From Owenia fusiformis (Eukaryota; Annelida; Polychaeta; Sabellida; Oweniidae): 64,000 bases of DNA. The DNA is taken from contig CAIIXF020000001.1 in assembly GCA_903813345.2 (NCBI GenBank), positions 24,541,915 to 24,605,914 on the forward strand, in the 5' to 3' direction. Below, one piece after another: positions 32,386-62,190 of the stretch (its first letter is position 1; every line of letters starts with the position of its first letter). Position numbers and translations under genes: made by a program. The notes below the pieces were generated by a model, which was given only the letters and a program-made list of their open reading frames with translations, was not told where the DNA came from and searched no databases.

Positions 32386-32910
32386 GACATTCGCTTTTAA
32401 ACATTAATGATATTGATATATGTGCAATATCTGAACATAAACTATTTAATGATAACATGTTCTTTGCTGACAGCATTAACAGAGATTATGACTCTTTTCC
32501 CGATCAGATGATTCATTGAATCCGTACTATTCTCACAGAAGGGGAAGGTATCAATGATTTGGAAATGCAAATTGCAACTTCAGGTGAAAAAAAAAAATAA
32601 CATAACAATTGACAGGATAGTAGGTATAGAGGTTACTGTTTACAGAAATAAACGTATCTATATATTTTCTGTATACTTACCAGCAAGCAATTATTCCCTT
32701 AACACTTATATTGAGTACCTAGAAAACCTACGAGACATATTATTCATCATCAGGGGGTGTTTTTATTCTCGGAGATTATAATGCTCATATCAATGGCCCA
32801 AGACTTGTTAAGAATAGACTCAACGAGCATTTTGCTCAATGATTATTTAACTGAATTATGCATGCAATCGATAATTGTAGACTCAAAATGCAAAGGCCCA
32901 GCCTTCACAT
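32386..32910 (+). mobile_element. LINE relic, endonuclease domain, left part
   Basis: Translated in pieces it gives ICAISEHKLF, then YIFSVYLPAS, then LGDYNAHING: the apurinic-type endonuclease landmarks of non-LTR retrotransposons (catalytic Glu; Gly-Asp-x-Asn). Stops and shifts are present. The ORF is interrupted at 32910 by the DNA transposon 32911-38727 and continues at 38732. If that insertion is removed, the frame reads FTCRPRNHANLTTIDH, the expected endonuclease sequence. Confidence 0.75.
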
Positions 32911-33167
32911 CGTCGCATGAGAATAACTTTGTACTAACTGCCATTTTTATAAAAAATGAGATGAACATGGAATTTTACCATTCAGAACATGGGCTTTCAT
33001 CTCAGGTACATGCCCCATGACAACTCTCTTTAAATTAGCTAGAATTCAGTCCTAAATTGTACTATCTCCAGGAAAATCTCTAAAATGTAGTTTAGAATTG
33101 TCATATCTGAGTAGACTGTTTCAACCAATCAAGTCTCTTAGAACTAGTCATGTTACACAAGGACAAA

Positions 33168-34444
33168 ATGGTGGATTCATGTGGTTTTGGTAAGTTTTGT
33201 TCAGTTTAGTTTGATTATATATTCATTTATTAGACAGGTTTTGTCAAGAATTAAACTATTACATATTCATCTACTTGTCTTCCCAAATGAGTATAAACAT
33301 TGCTGAACTTTCCATATTTCTTAAGTTTTCTTCATAAAATAGATAAATTTGGAGATGATACAATTTCATACTAAAACACAATATTCCAATGTGCATGTTA
33401 TTTGTATCTAAAAAAATGAAAAGAAACATTTTTGTTTGCACTAAAATATTTCTGCACATTTCAGATGATGTCCCTGATGAGATAATTCATCAAATTTCCA
33501 GCTATCTAGATCTACCAACTCTAACTACAACCATCTCACTTGTGAACAAAAGATGGAACTATATTGTGGAAAATAACAATAAGCTGTGGGAAACATTTTC
33601 ATTCTCATATCCTATTAATCTTGATGAAAGAGCCCTCCAGAAGATCTACAAACATTGCAATTTCTTCACAACATTTCTAGGCGGAAATGCAGAGATAACA
33701 ATAAATGCACCGCTTCAAGACTTGTACTTCAACAATATATTTAGTTGCGCAAAAAACATTGTATATTTAGAACTTGACAATACTGAAGTATCCTCATTGT
33801 TTGCATTGAAGTATCTTAAGTCGCTGGAAATACTATCACTTAACCATTGCATCAACATTCAGAACTGTGATATTGAGGTACTAGAACAATTACAGAATAT
33901 AGAGCAACTTTATATAATGCACACAAGTATCTCGGCACGTGCAATCTGTGACGTGTTTAAGGAAGGAAGAAGTAAACTATTTGTGTTAGATCTCCAAGGC
34001 ACAGAGTTCATTTACTCGGAGATATTAACAGTATTGAGGATACTACCAAATCTCAACTTCTTTGGATTATCACTGTTTGAAACAATAAGCTTGGCAAATT
34101 TTGACTCGACTTTCAGACCAAAGTAAAATACTTTTTAGTATTATTCTTGTTATATTGCAATGCTCCCAATGTCAGGTTTAATCACAATTAGTATATCAGC
34201 AAGATCATCTAATAATATGCATGTTAATTGAGCTTTAGGTCAACCTAATCTAAAATATTGGATAATTCAAGAAATTAAGTGACTTTTGTCAGTTTTCTCT
34301 GTATAATCCTATGGTATTTAGCATAATCATACTAATGCTGCAATCTTTTTTATTTATCTATTAAGCAAATGGTTAATTTAAAATAAATATGGTTTTGCTG
34401 TTCTTAATTGCAGATACTGTGACTGCGAGTTTAAACTCTTCTGA
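33168..34444 (+). CDS. F-box protein with leucine-rich repeats, inside a DNA transposon
   Basis: Exon 1 is 33168-33189 (MVDSCGF plus one base, donor ggtaagt). Exon 2 starts at 33465 after tttcag and joins in phase to give DDVPDEIIHQISSYLD, an F-box (about residues 8-50, ending NKLWETF). LRR-like repeats follow (LYFNNIFSCAKNIVYLEL; LKSLEILSLNHC; LQNIEQLYIMHT; RSKLFVLDLQGT; LPNLNFFGLSLF). The protein ends either at the TAA at 34124 (227 aa) or, if the gt at 34123 is used as donor to the acceptor at 34413, in exon 3 after KYCDCEFKLF (stop 34442-34444, 236 aa). F-box/LRR proteins are substrate adaptors of SCF ubiquitin ligases. The frame is intact over the whole exon, unlike its neighbours, which suggests function or recent mobility. 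It is unusual cargo for a transposon. Confidence 0.75.
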
Positions 34445-34519
34445 ACAACAGACAATGGATATGCAAGACTGTAGCTACAGTAGCTTTGTACTTGCCATAA
34501 ATAGGGCTGTGGAGTGTGT

Positions 34520-34925
34520 AAATGATGTGACTGAACAAGAGGCACCAGTCATGCCAGAACCAGTGCCAAATATACATGATATGCAGTATGTTAATGGTTT
34601 GATTGAACAAGAGGCACCAGTCATGCAAGAATCAGTGCCAAATATACAAGATATGCAGTATGTTAATGGTGTGATTGAACAAGAGGCACCAGTCATGCAA
34701 GAACCAGTGCCAAATATACATGATATGCAGTGTGTTAATGGTGTGATTGAACAAGAGGCACCAGTCATGCAAGAATCAGTGCCAAATATACATGATATGC
34801 AGTGTGTTTATGGTGTGATTGAACAAGAGGCATCAGTCATGCCAGAACCAGTGCCAAATATACATGATATGCAGTATGTTAATGGTGCGATTGAAGAAAA
34901 TCTACCAGTCACACCAGAACCAGTA
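34520..34925 (+). repeat. 72-bp minisatellite, about 6 units, coding-compatible
   Basis: The unit encodes 24 residues of the type EQEAPVMPEPVPNIHDMQ followed by a short linker. Six copies lie in a 205-codon frame at 34389-35006 that is out of register with the conserved DUF7869 reading downstream. An acceptor (attgcag) at 34413 precedes the frame. It may be the N-terminal exon of the DUF7869-type protein or a 3' UTR/exon of the F-box gene. All length differences are multiples of 3. Confidence 0.65.
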
Positions 34926-34959
34926 CCAAATATTGAAGTATCAAGTTCTGAAAAGAAAA

Positions 34960-37921
34960 AGAAAACGTACGATAAACAAGAGCAGCTGGAAATGCAACAT
35001 AGCTAAGGACAGAAGAGAGCATGGGCTGCTTTATAGGCCAAGAAATTCCTGAAAGAAAGATTACATCAATTAAAGACTGTCGGGGCAAGTGTAAATACAA
35101 ATGTGCTCTGAACATATCTGACACAGACAGAAAAAAGATAAATGACCACTTTTGGAACATTAGTAGAGCTGAAAAGCATGAATACATTGCAAAAACTACA
35201 ACCCGTCACATCAAGGCAAGAGAACGAGCAGGGAAAAAATCACGGAGAAAATTTACCATTAACTATTTCTGTGATCTAGGTGGAGACAGGATTAGGGTAT
35301 GCAAGGAATACTACCTTTCAACTCTGTGTATATCGTCCAGGATGATATCATATTATTACTCAACAATTCTCGATCAGAATACAGGTGTACCAAAGAGACC
35401 AAATAAAGGGAACAGATGGAAAAAATCTGAAAAAGAAAGAAATATTTTTATAAGGGCGCATATCAATTCGTTTCCTCGAATTGAAAGTCACTATTGTAGA
35501 TCAGGGACACACAGAGAATACTTGGAGGGTTATTTAAATGTCAATAAGATGTATGATTTATATGTTGACCATTGCAGAAAGAAAAAGGAGAACCCTTTAA
35601 AAAAACATTTGTATAGAACCATTTTCAATACAGAATTTAACATCTCGTTTAATGTCCCCAAAAAAGATCTCTGTGATAAATGTTCAATAGAAAATCTTGA
35701 AAATATAACGAAAGAGGTGAAAGAGAAATTGTCAATTCACAAAAGGGCGAAAGATGAGACACGCACAGAAAGGAATCAAGATAGAAAGCAATTAGGAAAA
35801 GACACAGTGCTGGTGTCCTTTGATATGGAAAATGTATTGACAATTCCTAAATGTGAAATAGGATCATTTTTCTACATGCGCAAATTGAATTTCTTTAATT
35901 TGACAGCATTGGCTGAGAAAGACAATAAAAAGGAACCTCATTGCATTGTCTGGCCTGAAAGCACTGCTGGGAGAGGTGCAAGTGAGATAGCAAGTGCGCT
36001 GTATAGAGTACTGAACATAGTAAAGGAGGACAAAACTGTTAAAAAAATAATCTTGTGGTCAGACTCGTGTGTTCCCCAAAATCGAAATAAGATGATGACT
36101 AGTGCCTTAAAACTGTTTGTACATGAAAACCCATCAATTGAAGTCATCATACACAAGTATGGCGAGGCAGGGCATAGTTATTTACAGGAAATTGACAATT
36201 TGTTTATCTATGCAGATGATACTTCAATTTTTAGCCCCTATCCAAAAGATCAGCCACAAAATTGTCTTGACTTACAACAAGATCTTAACAAAATATATTA
36301 CTGGGCCCAAACATGGCAAATGAACTTTAAAGCCTCAAAATCCGTTGACTTGACTTTCACTTCACCAACAACTGTTATTCAAAATGAACCAATTTTATTT
36401 TTGGGAACTAACCCAATAGATAAACAAAATACCCATAAGCACCTGGGTATCATTTTAGATCAAAAACTAACCTTTAAAGAGCATATTAACGAATTAATAA
36501 AACAGTCTCAAGCTTTGCTAAACCCTTTTAAAAGGTTGACTCATGTTTTAAGATCTAAACACTTAGAAACCATTTATAATGCCTTCATTTTGAGTCGAAT
36601 TGACTATGGTGATATCTTATATTCTAGTGCTCCTGAATTATCTTTGATTAAGTTAGACAGATTTCAATATAATGCAGCTTGTTTGATAACTGGCGCTCTG
36701 CATGGCTCTAGCACTCAGAAGGTGTTAGATATTTTAAATTGGACAAAGTTACCAGATGGAAGAAAATCTCATTTATGTACTTTTCTTTTCAAAAGCAGAC
36801 ATAATTTAATAGCACCATATGTAAGTCAAGTTTTCAATGGTTGCAGAAATATTCCAACTCGAACTCTAAGAGCTTTCAGAGAATACAATATTCCTTTAGA
36901 TATAAGTAAAAGGTTTGAGAAATCTACTTTCTATGCAGCAATTGAAACTTGGAATACTTTACCTGATGATATAAGAAATTGTGAGCGAATTTCAATTTTT
37001 AAACGCAGGATCAAGGCACATTTTGAAAATTTCAATGGTACAAATTTCATAACTTATAGTAATGTTAAAAGGAAAAATGAAGTGTCATTTAATAGACTCA
37101 GAGTAGATCTTTATTTGAAAAGCCAGCTTTTTGCACATAATTTTAACAACGTGCCTTCACCAGAGTGTGCCTGTGGTCATCGCTCTGAAACACCAAAGCA
37201 CTTTTTTCTACAGTGCCCTCTATACACGAACCCAAGATGTCAACTCCTTAGAGATCTCCATATGGCGGATTGCTTAAGGGCATTTTTAGATTGTAATTCT
37301 TCTGATAAAATAGACATGCTTTTATTTGGTCACCCTGATTTTGATCATAATACTAATATTTTAATAATCAAAGCAAGTGTATCATTTTTGCAATCCACCA
37401 AAGACCTACTGGGCCCGTAACCAAACTCTACACATTAAGCACACAACTTGACCATTTTAAATAAAATAATGAATCTTTCTTTGTAAAGTAAAAATTTATG
37501 AATGTAACTACATTAAGGTTTTTAGTTTGACAATAATGTTACTTGTAACCTAGTCAAACGTTATAATTGTATTATTGTATGTATAGTATATATTTGAAAT
37601 AAATGATTATTAAAAAAAAAAAAAATTGACAATTTACATTCTCAGATTGAGAAAGAATTGAGAGTATGTGATTACTTTAGTCCAAATGGACTTATCCGAG
37701 CCCTGAAGCGTGTTAAAAGAAAAGCAAATTTTCGAGTAACAGAAGAGTGAAGACTTCTTTGACTTCCATAAGTTAGCACAGGCATTTGACACAAGCAGTA
37801 TACCATTTTTATCGATAAAGCAAATTACTTACTCACCTGAAAGGTACACACTGAAGTACAAAAAGCGTTTCAAGGAAGAAGAAATTGAGGCAAACATACA
37901 AAAAAGGCGTAGAAAAAAGTA
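34960..37921 (+). pseudogene. DUF7869-type RNase H-like (transposase-like) gene, split by a LINE
   Basis: The conserved order is: a basic N-terminal motif (SSWKCNIAKDRREHG, then a shift), CRGKCKYKC, ESHYCRSGTHREYLEG, FNVPKKDLCDKCS, LVSFDMENVL, WPESTAGRGASEIASA and LWSDSCVPQNRNK, ending at GEAGHSY. The Asp in SFDMEN and the Asp in WSDSC with the following Asn-Arg-Asn look like an RNase H-fold catalytic core, and the family is known from many-copy invertebrate proteins (DUF7869). At 36201 the gene is broken by a LINE and resumes at 37636 with HSQIEKELRVCDYFSPNGL. A TGA at 37747-37749 with a frame change breaks the last part, which ends KRRRKK at 37921. It is probably the transposase gene of the surrounding 5.8 kb element. 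Confidence 0.7.
36202..37622 (+). mobile_element. 5'-truncated LINE inserted in the DUF7869-type gene
   Basis: The target duplication AAATTGACAATTT is exact on both sides (36189-36201 and 37623-37635), and a poly(A) tail precedes the right copy. The open frame starts inside the reverse transcriptase palm at YADDTSIF (the catalytic FADD/YADD motif) and continues through the thumb region (HLGIILDQKLTF; FILSRIDYGDILYSS) to a C-terminal knuckle (CACGH, then H-x4-C). It ends GP-stop at 37420 and has a 200 bp 3' UTR. By chance it joins the host frame without a stop, giving a 799-codon chimera. The uninterrupted frame and perfect duplication indicate a young insertion. Confidence 0.9.
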
Positions 37922-38731
37922 ACTCAGTGCATTTTAAATTCATATTCTTAATATGTAAGATTTTACATGGATCTTTATCTTTAACACATGGTTGTGCTAA
38001 ATAAAAGTAAGACAACAAAAAAGAGATGAAAGGCCATGCATGTTTGATAGCATTGTATTGTGTAATTTCTGCTCAGAATATTTTTCTAGTCTTTATATAC
38101 TATCATGTACATTAATTTATATGTACAGTAATTTATTTTTGTATTATAGTTCACACAATATGGACATTCCAGAGTGTAAAATATTACATGTTATCATGTT
38201 ACATGATGTAACATGGTGCTGTGTTAAAATATGATAACTTATCAATTTGAAAGGCCATACATGCATGATGGCATACTATTGTGTAATTTTGCTCAGAACT
38301 ATATATTTTCTTCATATGTATCATTTACAGTTATTTTGACTTATATAATGAATACATTTTAGTTTTGAAGTCATTCATTTTAATATTTAGTTATGTTGTT
38401 TTGTTAGAATATTATAAGAAATTCCACTTCATAAAGATCAATTGTATTATCTCCACAAATTAGTCATAGAATCTTTTCAAATTTAAAATTAGGTTTTATC
38501 TCGGCGCTTAATTGTACTATCTCCATTTTCATAGTTTTAAAAAACGATCTTACAAATAATTTCAAAATACCATATTTCATATGATAAAAGGATGAGACTA
38601 AGTGACTTACAAAAATTCAAGTTCTATATAGCAATAGTAAGTAAGTTACAGACCACTATAACTTTCAAACCTTGATTTCTCAGTTTCAGAAAAATGTGAG
38701 ATAGTACAAAGTTATTCTCATGCGACGACAT

Positions 38732-48417: not shown

Positions 48418-49285
48418 CGCTGAGTCATCTAGAATAAGCCGAGTCATCCAGAATAAGCTGAGTCATCCAGAATAAGCTGAGTCATCCAGAAGAAGCCGAG
48501 TCATCCAGAATAAGCCGATGGATGGATGAATGGATGGATTGATAGGATGGAAGGATAGGACAGAATAGGAAGGAAGGATAGGATAGAATAGGAAGAAAGG
48601 ATAGGAAAGGATAGGAAGGATGGGAAAGAAGGATAGGATTGGATAGGATACGTGGGATGGATATAGCCGAGTCATCCAGAATAAGCCAAGTCATCCAGTC
48701 ATATCCCTCTTTCCTATCCTTCTTATCCTATCCTTCCTATCCTATCCTATCCTTCCTATTCTGGATAGGATAGAATAGGAAGAAAGGATGGGATAGGATA
48801 GGATAGGAAGGAAGGATAGGATAGGAAGGATAGTAAAGAAGGATAGGATTGGATAGGATAGGCTAGGTGTGATGGATATAGCCTAGTCATCCAGAATAAG
48901 CCGAGTCATCCAGAATAAGCCAAGTCATCCAGAATAAGCTGAGTCATCCAGAATAAGCCGAGTCATCCATAATAAGCGGACGGATGGATGGATGAATGGA
49001 TGGATTGATAGGAAGGATAGGACAGAATAGGAAGGACAGAATAGGAAGGAAGGATAGGATAGAATAGGAAGGAAGGATAGGATAGAATAGGAAGAAAGGA
49101 TAGGATAGGAAGGATAGGATAGAATAGGAAGAAAGGATAGGATAGGAAGGATAGGATACGATAGAATAGGAAGAAAGAATAAGATAGGACAGAATAGGAA
49201 GGATAGGATAGGATAAGAAGGAAGGATAGGATAGGAAGGATAGGAAAGAAGGATAGGATAGGATAGGATGGATGGATATGATAGA
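48418..49285. repeat. alternating 19-bp satellite and GGATA-type microsatellite blocks
   Basis: The 19-mer gagtcatccagaataagcc is tandem at 48421-48515, about 48668-48698 and 48885-48975. Between and after these lie blocks of 'ggataggatagaataggaag' on one strand (48530-48650, 48765-48865, 49005-49275), with a short opposite-strand block at 48700-48760. The pattern suggests repeated co-amplification of a composite unit. All open frames in it are by-products. Confidence 0.75.
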
Positions 49286-57689: not shown

Positions 57690-59690
57690 AAAAGCATTTG
57701 CAAAGATAAAAACAGAATCATAACATGAGAGTGGAGATATTTTATTAGCATGGACAAGGAGTGAAAATTAACATCTATAGAAACCTATTACTTCAAAAGG
57801 ACCATGACATGAAGGTGGAATAAGCATTTGAAGAAAATGAGGAATAAATTAAATGTATCATTATGATTTGTGAATTAGCATTTGTAGAAAGTAAAGATTT
57901 AGCAATTTGGCATGAAGGGGAAACAAGGAAATATATATCATCAAATACACAAGAAATAAACATTAAAATAAGCAGTAAAAGGGGATTAGCATTTGTAAAA
58001 AATAAGTAATAAACGAAATATGCTATGAAATAAAGTTGAAAAGAGCTTTTTTAGAAGTAAAAAGTAAATCAAAAATATGTAAATCATGCTTTCCACTAGA
58101 TGTTATTCGCATTTGTAAAAGGAAATGAATGAAAAATGCCATGACACGACGCTTAAGGAGGGTCAACATTTGTTGAAAATCAGACATGAACAAAGTATAC
58201 CAATGCATTTGTAAAAACTGGGGTATGAAAAAATAAGCAAAAAATGAAGAAGGAATTGGCTTTTTTATAAAATGAAATTAACAAAATATATCCTCCATAA
58301 CATTTGAGAGGAATTAGCATTTGTAGAAATTAAGGAATGAAAAATACCATTTATAAGATGAAGGAATAAACAAAATATATCATGTATAACATTTGAGTGT
58401 AATTGGCACTTGTAGAAAATAAGGATTGAAAAATACTATTTATAAAATGAAGGAATTAACGAAATAAATCATGTACAACGTTTGAGTGGAATTAGCATTT
58501 GTAGAAAATAAGGAATGAAAAATACCTTTTATAAAATGGAGGCCGGAATAAACAAAACATACCATGTATAACATTTGAGTGGAATTAGCATTTGTAGAAA
58601 ATAAGGAATCAAAATTATAATTTATGAAATGGAGGAATAAACAAAATATATATTGTATATCATTTGAATGGAATAAGCGTTTGTCGAAAAACAGGAATTA
58701 AAAATACCATTTACAAAATAAAGGAATAAACAAAATACATCATGTATAACATGTGACTGGAATTAGCATTTGTAAAAAAGGAATGAAAAATACCATATAT
58801 AAAATGAAGGAATAACAAAATACATCATGTAAAACATTTGAGTGGAATTAGCATTTGTAGAAAAAAGGAATAGAAATACCATTTATAAAATGAAGGAACA
58901 AACAAAATATATAATGTACAACATTTGAGTGGAATTAGCATTTGTAGAAAATAAGGAATGAAAATACCATTTATAAAATGAAGGAATAATCAAAATATAT
59001 CATGTGTAACATTTGATTGGAATTAGCACTTGTAGAAAATGAGGAATGAAAAATACCATTTATAAAATGAAGGAATAAACAAAATATATCATGTAGAACA
59101 TTTGAGTGGAATAAGCATTTTTATAAAATAAGGAATGAAAAATACCATTCATAAAATGAAGGAATAATCAAAATATATCATGTGTAACATTTGATTGGAA
59201 TTAGCACTTGTAGAAAATGAGGAATGAAAAATACCATTTATAAAATGAAGGAATAAACAAAACATATCATGTATAACATTTAAGTGGGATTAGCTTTTGT
59301 AGAAATAAGGAATGAAAAATACCATTCATAAAATGAAGAAATAAACAAAATATATCATGTAGAACATTTGAGTGGAATAAGCATTTTTATAAAATAAGGA
59401 ATGAAAAATATCATTCATAAAATGAAGAAATAAACAAAATATATCATGTATAACATTTGAGTGGAATTAGCACTTATAGAAAATAAGGAATGAAAATACC
59501 ATTTATAAAATGAAGGAATAAACAAAATATAACATGTACAACATTTGAGTGGAATTAGCATTTGTAGAAAATTAGGATAAAAAAAACCATTCATTGAATG
59601 AAGGAATAAACAAAATATATCATGTATAACATTTAAGTGGAATTAGCATTCGTAGAAAATAATGATTAAAAAATAATGTAGAATACCAAA
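57690..59690. repeat. satellite array, unit about 90 bp, left part
   Basis: The unit runs approximately 'ggaattagcatttgtagaaa', 'ataaggaatgaaaaatacca', 'tttataaaatgaaggaataa', 'acaaaatatatcatgtataacatttgagt'. From about 58300 the copies are regular (about 15). From 57690 to 58300 they are strongly diverged in sequence and length, as expected at the edge of an array. Units are all in one orientation. Confidence 0.85.
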
Positions 59691-60172
59691 TTACTGGGAT
59701 TAGCATAAGTAGAATATAAGCGTTGTTAAAAGTAGTATGTGAAGTGTATATATGAAAACTGTTGGATCTACTGTAAAAAAGTTTGCCCGAAAGTAAGTAT
59801 GAATTTTATGACATGTTAAATATCTAGTTTGATCCTGTCAATTTGATCCAAAAATATCTTCATGTGATTGGAACTTGTATGTTTCGTGTGTCCTACAATG
59901 AAGAAAGATCAGTATTTAAATTCATATATTAATCAGTATGCTCAGAATTAAGATAATGTGATTATAAGTTTTGATTGTGCATCACAATTTGCAGTACAAG
60001 TTCAATGTCTTGAGATACATTTTGTTTTACTGATATGCAATTTCTAAAAAGATAATAGGAAATCCTTTCAAGGATAATATACTGGTAACATCAATGGTGT
60101 CAGAGTCTTCTATTGTATGTTAATAAAATAAGGAGAGCGAATTAAATCATGTATTATTGACAATTTTGACAG

Positions 60173-60301
60173 ATCAACACTGGTGTAATCACTGATAGTG
60201 ATAGTGATGGGGATAACGATGACAATACGCTGCCACCAATAGACATGGACGCACTCGGTGAATCCAGCAGTAGTGGCAGTAACCAAGACGACTCGTTCGA
60301 G
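60173..60301 (+). CDS. exon-like acidic segment within the satellite
   Basis: A good acceptor (caattttgacag) precedes 129 bases, exactly 43 codons in phase 0, followed by a donor (gag/gtgtgt). The reading is INTGVITDSDSDGDNDD followed by a Ser/Asp-rich stretch ending DDSFE. It is much more GC-rich than the surrounding satellite, and the non-satellite island 59690-60320 contains it. It probably belongs with the exon at 62503, also phase 0. Acidic regions of this type are common in nuclear proteins; no domain can be named. Confidence 0.45.
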
Positions 60302-60309
60302 GTGTGTAG

Positions 60310-61295
60310 ACTTAGCATAAGCATTTAATATGAAGGAATACACAAAATATTATATCATGTATAACATTTGAGTGGAATTAGCATTTGTAGAAAATAAGAA
60401 ATGAAAAATACCATCTATAAAATGAAGGAATAGACAAAATATATATCATGTATAACATTTAAGTGGAATTAGCATTTGTAGAAAATAAGGAATGAAAAAT
60501 ACCATTCATAAAATGAAGGAATAAACAAAATATATCATGTATAACATTTGAGTGGAATTAGCATTTGTAGAAAATAAGGAATGAAAAATACCATTTATAA
60601 AATGAAGGAATAAACAAAACATATCATATATAACATTTAAGTGGGATTAGCATTTGTAGATAATAAGGAATGAAAAATACCATTTATAAAATGAAGGAAT
60701 AAACAAAATATTTCATGTAGAACGATTAAGTGGAATTAGCCCTTGTAGAAAATAAAGAATGGAAAAATGGGAGAATAAACAAGATATACCATGTATAACA
60801 TTTGAGTGGAATTAGCATTTGTAGAAACTAAGGAATGAAAAATACCATTTATAAAATGAAGGAATAAACAAAACATAATCATGTATATCATTTAAGTGGA
60901 ATTAGCATTTGTAGGAGATAAGGAATGTAAAATACCACTTATAAAATGAAGGAATAAACAAAATATATCATGTATAACAGTTGAGTGGAATTAGCACTTA
61001 TAGAAAATAAGGAATGAAAAATACCATTTATAAAATGAAGGAATAAACAAATATTTCATGTAGAACAATTGAGTGGAATTAGCACTTGTAGAAAATAAGG
61101 AACGGAAAATACCATTTATAAAATGAAGGAATAAACAAAATATATCATGTAGAACAATTAAGTGGAATTAGCACTTGTATATAATAAGGAATGAAAATAC
61201 CATTTATAAAATGAAGGAATAAACAAAATATATCATGAAGAACAAATAAGTGGAATTAGCACTTGTAGAAAATAAAGAAAAAAAACATTTATAAA
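60310..61295. repeat. satellite array, unit about 90 bp, right part
   Basis: The same unit and orientation as 57690-59690, about 11 copies. It ends at about 61295, where the sequence changes to 'ggaacgctagaccacttggt'. Some units are shortened. Confidence 0.85.
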
Positions 61296-62190
61296 ATGTT
61301 GGAACGCTAGACCACTTGGTTGAGGAGGAACCACACACGGTGAGTCAAAGTAAACCCAAATCTGTGAGAATACATAATCCCCAAAAGGGGATTAATTAGA
61401 TCCGAATTAGATTAACGATTTGTGATATAATACTTTAATATGACACATATGTCCATATTTTCGTATTTTCAACTGAGAAACAGATTGTACATAAATATAT
61501 TATCTAATGACACAGAACAGAAGATTCCACAATTACAAATATTTTCATTAGATAGGAATCCAATCAATCCATGTGCTTAAGCTCGTATAATAAATATAAA
61601 TCGAAATGTGGACCTAATTATTCTATCCAAAAAAGCGTCAGTCTATGCATCAATCCATTTATCCAAATCCTTTTATTCGGGAAGTAGTATAAAAAGAGGA
61701 CACATGGGTTCATCCAAAAGTGATTGGAATTTCGACATTCAAAACTGCTACATCACAACCTATCCAAGTGATCCGTAGCATCCTGTTTTTATATTACTAC
61801 AGAATAACACTGATTAACCTGAACTTACCGCAAAGAAATGGAGATAATGTTTCACAGATAGTTTGGCAGAGACCGCCCTAATTGCAAGAGAAATTCTTGC
61901 ACAACAATGGCAATGTTAAGATCTTAACTATAATATTGTATTATTTATTCTTTCTCGGCTATTTTCTGCCACAACCGCGGGAATTAAGTTTTATCAATAT
62001 CTTGCTTTTACACAGTTTATATAATACTCATCATTGTCTCTTCAACCGCAGATAATACAGCTATATTTAGTACGCTGTTTTTATTCAACTTGACTTTCAC
62101 ACCCAATCGTTTTCAATGTTTATGTTACGATACTGCGAAGCACTATTGGATTATGTTATAAGTTAAGTTTTGCATTAATTTTTTCAAGAT
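61296..62190. other. gene-free stretch
   Basis: No supported gene or repeat. Probably intronic if the exons at 60173 and 62503 belong to one gene. Confidence 0.35.

Follow-up and report, generated by a model that had tools for sequence, protein, structure and literature searches.

The window analysed here, a 64-kb stretch of the Owenia fusiformis genome, contains at 32911-38727 a DNA transposon in which an F-box/leucine-rich repeat (LRR) gene lies beside a gene of the DUF7869 type. This raises the question whether the F-box gene is a standing part of the transposon or a host gene that a single copy acquired recently; the earlier note on this DNA had left both possibilities side by side. Our analysis indicates that the element is very probably a copy of a two-gene cut-and-paste transposon in which a DUF7869 DDE transposase is accompanied by a standing F-box/LRR accessory gene. 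Comparison of copies showed that the two genes are paired in constant order and strand and move together inside a common pair of ends, and that the F-box gene is under selection and has in one case apparently been exchanged between lineages. Both the anatomy of the element and the reading of the F-box gene as a standing component are well supported, and from its family and fold the F-box protein is probably an adaptor of SCF (SKP1-cullin-F-box) ubiquitin ligases.

The assembly that was searched comprises 498,259,871 bases in 525 contigs, denoted by C-numbers. A protein search with the F-box frame of the window gave 19 matches at 17 distinct loci including the window itself. Fifteen of the 16 other loci were 25-44% identical in the matched stretches and one, a fragment, was 71% identical. 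At 11 of the 16 a DUF7869 gene with a near-full-length match was found downstream on the same strand (Table 1), and gene order and strand were identical in all 11 pairs. The DUF7869 frame was open over most of the matched length in seven pairs and interrupted or shortened in C8, C1:35810975, C4 and C5. The earlier note had proposed examining whether other copies carry the F-box frame next to the DUF7869 frame; of its two options, the 11 paired loci bear out the standing gene and largely refute the recent capture. Examination of the surrounding DNA at the other five loci (C4:27949263, C3, C10:14245382, C6 and C11) did not reveal a DUF7869 gene. Four of these are partial or decayed F-box frames, and only C11 has an open full frame. 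C11 and C6 look like deleted element copies, because a C9-type right terminus lies ca. 2 kb downstream of the C11 F-box and a stretch at C6 is 84% alike to the C2:2114359 element. Around the F-box parts at C4:27949263, C3 and C10:14245382 no further element sequence was found. When the strongly divergent F-box protein of the C12 copy served as a second query, 13 matches were obtained, all at known loci; both searches used E≤1e-3, and their initial pass scored only 32 and 21 candidates.

The reverse search with the DUF7869 piece of the window returned 38 rows. Long matches (41-46% identity) occurred at 11 other loci, which were the F-box-linked ones, C8 appearing as two rows. Neither the four shorter matches (70-221 aa, 42-47%) at C135, C134, C10:29418682 and C9:21648505 nor the rows of at most 37% identity had an F-box match of their own in either F-box genome search. 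One of these weaker rows, C1:37177181, lies upstream of the C1:37179108 pair, ca. 1.3 kb from its F-box. Among the F-box-unlinked loci, DNA was read for C3:13186000-13194000 only. In the C4 and C2 copies (L051 and L053) the transposase frame or match starts only 108-132 bp after the F-box frame or match ends, and this short distance suggests a joint transcript of the two genes in that family.

The boundaries of the window element were fixed by its inverted ends, the flanking ACAT duplication and an empty-site relative. Allowing up to three mismatches, the 26-bp tip occurred in the window only at the two element ends and in none of 100 shuffles. When both flanks were fused with one ACAT and used as query, the genome search returned, besides the flanks themselves, a single relative. 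This sequence (C12:16471298-16471433) is 79% identical to the joined flanks and crosses the join without the element, with 17 matched bases to the left of it and 119 to its right. The exact boundaries, perfect inverted ends and target duplication described earlier were thereby confirmed.

Nine of the 11 other pairs form four young families (C8/C1, C4/C2, C9/C9 and C12/C5/C10), the members of which are 94-99% alike over their longest pieces and occupy sites on different chromosomes or far apart. Both ends could be placed at six of the 12 paired loci, the window included, and all six bounded elements have inverted ends starting with CG, a matching 4-bp duplication and both genes inside. In the C9, C12 and C5 copies the limits of family likeness defined the ends before the duplication was read; at C2:2114359 detection of the inverted repeat came first. 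The left ends of the C12 and C5 elements are identical to that of the window element over the first 11 bp (CGTCGCATGAG). At the remaining six paired loci both ends were not located; C10 gave a left end only, and C1:35810975 consists partly of N. Short relatives of the left end of the window element (32911-33156) are present in high copy number, with at least 38 places that have no F-box or DUF7869 match. These (L012-L029 among them) are 81-82% identical to the window and, in the pieces compared, about 95-99% to each other. The four bases preceding the tip start with A at all 18 short-copy loci read. A right end was found for L012 only, a 746-bp copy with the target-site duplication ATAT; other right-end candidates with equal duplications had 9-11 mismatches in 20 and were dropped.

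The three exons assigned to the F-box gene of the window copy join into 236 aa without a stop. By eye, the third resembles the C-termini of the related proteins P0123, P0124 and P0125. The protein matched the Pfam models F-box-like (E = 2.5e-9, 37.2 bits against a cut-off of 24.3) and F-box (E = 8e-8, 32.3 bits against 20.5). An LRR fold was present in its predicted model, and the Pfam LRR models scored below their cut-off. The intact F-box/LRR gene of the earlier note is upheld, with its splicing predicted in silico. A search with this single sequence matched only itself, and relatives among proteins were found only with a profile of nine copies. Matches to internalins and other LRR proteins were attributed to the common repeat and not taken as kinship.

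The DUF7869-type gene of the window contains WSDSCVPQNRNK; its family is large, with 262 proteins aligning to the window piece at E≤1e-3. The piece itself gave no match to the Pfam DUF7869 model (PF25273) at E≤1. Among its relatives, P0005 (26.9 bits, cut-off 26) and the locus L064 passed the cut-off, and P0002 and P0007 stayed below it. The gene is broken by a nested retrotransposon, flanked by the target duplication ATTGACAATTT at 36191-36201 and 37625-37635, and by shifts of the reading frame near 35000-35060 and near 37740. For this reason the window copy is now non-autonomous and cannot make its own transposase. The nested element weakly resembled the Pfam model RVT_1 (E 0.0012, under the cut-off), and its seven best other genome copies are 98-99% alike. 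The pairing and the WSDSCVPQNRNK family described earlier stood, but the damage by retrotransposon and frame changes had been missed. Repeat arrays were seen at 34513-34933 of the window (72-bp units) and, with other units, in L055, the C9 copies and L064; they occupy the N-terminal region of the transposase gene or lie immediately before it, and their sequences are otherwise unrelated.

Table 1. Features of the window element (positions in the window), and the related elements and paired loci of the genome.
Feature	Position	Strand	Basis
Left target-site duplication, ACAT	32907..32910	.	flank comparison; empty-site relative
Left terminal inverted repeat (perfect over 26 bp, imperfect to 38 bp)	32911..32948	+	window sequence
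F-box gene exon 1 (MVDSCGF), donor GTAAGT	33168..33189	+	in-silico splice only
F-box gene exon 2, F-box motif and LRRs, without stop or frame change	33465..34122	+	
F-box gene exon 3 (YCDCEFKLF, stop)	34414..34444	+	inferred from C-termini of relatives
Probable N-terminal part of DUF7869-type gene, 24-aa (72-bp) repeats, 5.8 copies, followed by frame changes	34456..35003	+	assignment inferred
First conserved part of the DUF7869-type transposase gene, 398 aa, with FDMENV, WSDSC, QEID	35009..36202	+	
Nested 5'-truncated non-LTR retrotransposon with poly-A, splitting the transposase gene	36202..37624	+	
DUF7869-type gene, 3' part, frame change near 37740	37625..37922	+	
Right terminal inverted repeat	38690..38727	-	window sequence
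Right target-site duplication, ACAT	38728..38731	.	window sequence
Duplications of bounded elements	window ACAT; C9 copies AGAT, ATAT; C12 and C5 copies ATAT, ATAT; C2:2114359 AACT		
Paired F-box and DUF7869 loci	C8:25918326, C1:35810975, C4:29316885, C2:2114359, C2:30961927, C10:31312920		
Further paired loci	C1:37179108, C9:18728040, C9:8275314, C12:16714355, C5:5440528		

Structure prediction gives the DUF7869 protein a DDE transposase core, RNase H-like and with conserved D, D and E/D residues. In a VIA-align comparison of its model, mariner transposases and retroviral integrases came first. Foldseek with the same model gave no match at E≤1e-3, a herpesvirus terminase nuclease ranking first. 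With the DUF7869 profile, a search of PDB sequences yielded one row (E 1.3), which was taken as chance, and scans of IMG/VR and GTDB contigs found no relatives. Terminal inverted repeats, a duplication of fixed length and the predicted RNase H-like core together agree with a cut-and-paste DDE transposon. The earlier proposal that DUF7869 proteins are the transposases of this element class is supported by the predicted core, its conserved residues and the bounded elements. Pfam gives PF25273 no function; we place it as the probable DDE-type transposase of these elements, by which an orphan family gains a likely function. The literature search found no paper that names DUF7869.

Selection preserves the F-box gene, since between two diverged ones 0.78 of the silent sites differ and only 0.165 of the replacement sites, a comparison of the kind proposed in the earlier note. 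The C9:18728040 and C1:37179108 elements have F-box proteins 72% alike and transposase cores 43% alike, and their DNA is 72% alike over ca. 950 bp including ca. 200 bp ahead of the F-box frame. The pattern is inverted between C9 and C2:2114359, whose F-box proteins are 45% and whose transposases are 60% alike. Over 21 lineage pairs, which are not independent, the identities of both proteins were weakly correlated (Spearman 0.39, p 0.08). Because two similar F-box proteins go with far less similar transposases, it is simplest to assume that the F-box part passed from one transposase lineage to another, with one clear case. The target of the F-box protein would therefore be common to these elements, most simply a host protein and not the transposase of the same element.

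These observations suggest a mechanism in which the DUF7869 transposase would recognise the CG... inverted ends and make the 4-bp duplications. The F-box would bind SKP1 and, judging by fold and family, the LRR part would recruit a target protein to the SCF ubiquitin ligase of the host. More tentatively, we propose as this target a host protein, possibly one that represses transposition, and not the transposase. This choice is favoured because the LRR part is the most conserved (46%, against 31% for the F-box part) and because similar F-box proteins go with very different transposases. The maintenance of the pairing across many separate copies suggests that the transposon uses the protein-disposal system of the host. 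Selection has kept a transposon-owned F-box gene in lineages that diverged deeply, which makes this a testable example of a transposon that may work via the host ubiquitin system.

Other explanations of the F-box gene were weighed against this one. DNA transposons capture host genes, and the coding part of the window element has no other copy at the DNA level apart from an 82% fragment at C4:27949266, as would fit a passenger recently taken from the host by this element alone. With 16 other F-box loci, 11 of them next to a transposase gene, and two genome searches (E≤1e-3, 32 and 21 candidates scored in the initial pass) that led to the same loci only, where among the unpaired only C11 has an open full frame, such a capture is very unlikely. 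A chance association of two separate mobile elements that tend to insert nearby could draw on the five F-box loci at which a DUF7869 gene was not found, but the constant strand and order of the 11 pairs contradict it, and for the six fully bounded elements it is refuted by the presence of both genes within one pair of ends; we consider it practically negligible.

Two further explanations accept the accessory gene but assign it another role. Self-limitation is common among transposons, and the constant order and strand of the pairs would suit an F-box protein that destroys or modifies its own transposase, thereby limiting or timing transposition. This is a less likely alternative, given that F-box proteins 72% alike accompany transposases only 43% alike and that the correlation of identities is weak. 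The LRR protein might also work without ubiquitin, for example as a transposase partner or nuclear carrier with a vestigial F-box. The lower conservation of the F-box part and the frames of family A, which lack its start, point in that direction. All nine members of alignment A2, however, score at E≤1 against both Pfam models, F-box and F-box-like, and P0125 and P0126, relatives from other sources, match F-box-like above cut-off; we regard a vestigial F-box as improbable. The view of a standing accessory gene that acts through the host ubiquitin ligase accommodates these results best.

Accessory genes in DNA transposons are of a known kind (PMC9587614, PMC3627910). Several of the Kolobok lineages (KolobokE, H, P, D and Kolobok0), which are DDD/E transposons, are each tied to one accessory protein; these are nucleases, a helicase or KolX, and the main text of that source does not mention an F-box (PMC9587614). 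Sola2 families of Dictyostelium fasciculatum are described with AWWT target-site duplications and 12-13-bp terminal inverted repeats (PMC3627910), which resemble the short inverted ends and A...T-rich 4-bp duplications of the present group (ACAT, AGAT, ATAT, AACT). Their transposase has 888 aa and their accessory gene is Fanzor, in contrast to the F-box gene here (PMC3627910). As far as target-site duplications go, the earlier likening to Sola-type transposons agrees with the 4 bp seen in six of six bounded elements. Caenorhabditis F-box A2 genes, which carry a Tc1/mariner helix-turn-helix, likewise combine F-box and transposon parts, but there a host F-box gene captured a transposon domain, whereas here the transposon owns the F-box gene (PMC12062965). 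The window protein has the F-box motif and, in the model, the leucine-rich repeats of FBXL adaptors such as SKP2, FBXL2, FBXL5 and FBXL17, but it is short, with few LRRs, and encoded within a transposon. Titles and abstract starts in the literature searched, which left Repbase Reports and most subscription journals outside, gave no recognised F-box accessory gene in a DNA transposon.

Beyond this species, the DUF7869 transposase group appears to be wide, as proteins of this type occur, by their names, in Hydra, molluscs and insects. The F-box profile search also found the relatives P0125 and P0126, which lie on contigs of 1.9 Mb and 3.1 kb. In the best tree seven F-box-linked transposase rows fell on one side of a branch with support of only 58/98. 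The printed tree places the F-box-linked transposases around an unresolved node, and one origin is neither shown nor rejected. The F-box profile search further returned the deposited Owenia fusiformis proteins P0122-P0124, two of them named F-box domain-containing; compared by eye, they coincide with F-box frames of element copies, and F-box genes in invertebrate gene lists can thus be transposon genes.

The more distant DUF7869 element L064 (C3:13186000-13194000, reverse strand), with an equal-scoring copy at C1:37273737, contains a single frame of 1005 aa. Its ends, 42 bp long and 95% alike, start with TTAA and may be read as a TTAA duplication adjoining CG... ends. The N-terminal part matches OTU domain-containing protein 2 (E 1.8e-5), presumably a yeast protein, and weakly the Pfam OTU model (E 0.026, below cut-off). 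Should this OTU-like region prove real, the ubiquitin system would be exploited through opposite arms by two branches of a single group of transposons. We tentatively propose, as a possibility somewhat short of even, that DUF7869 transposons are a large animal group that repeatedly adopts host ubiquitin tools, either as an exchangeable F-box/LRR adaptor or as an OTU-like deubiquitinase fused to the transposase. Selfish DNA would then direct or reverse the ubiquitin marking of a host defence factor.

Elsewhere in the window, long tandem arrays occur at 58264-61298 and 48422-49284 (89/177-bp units; GATAG-type repeats).

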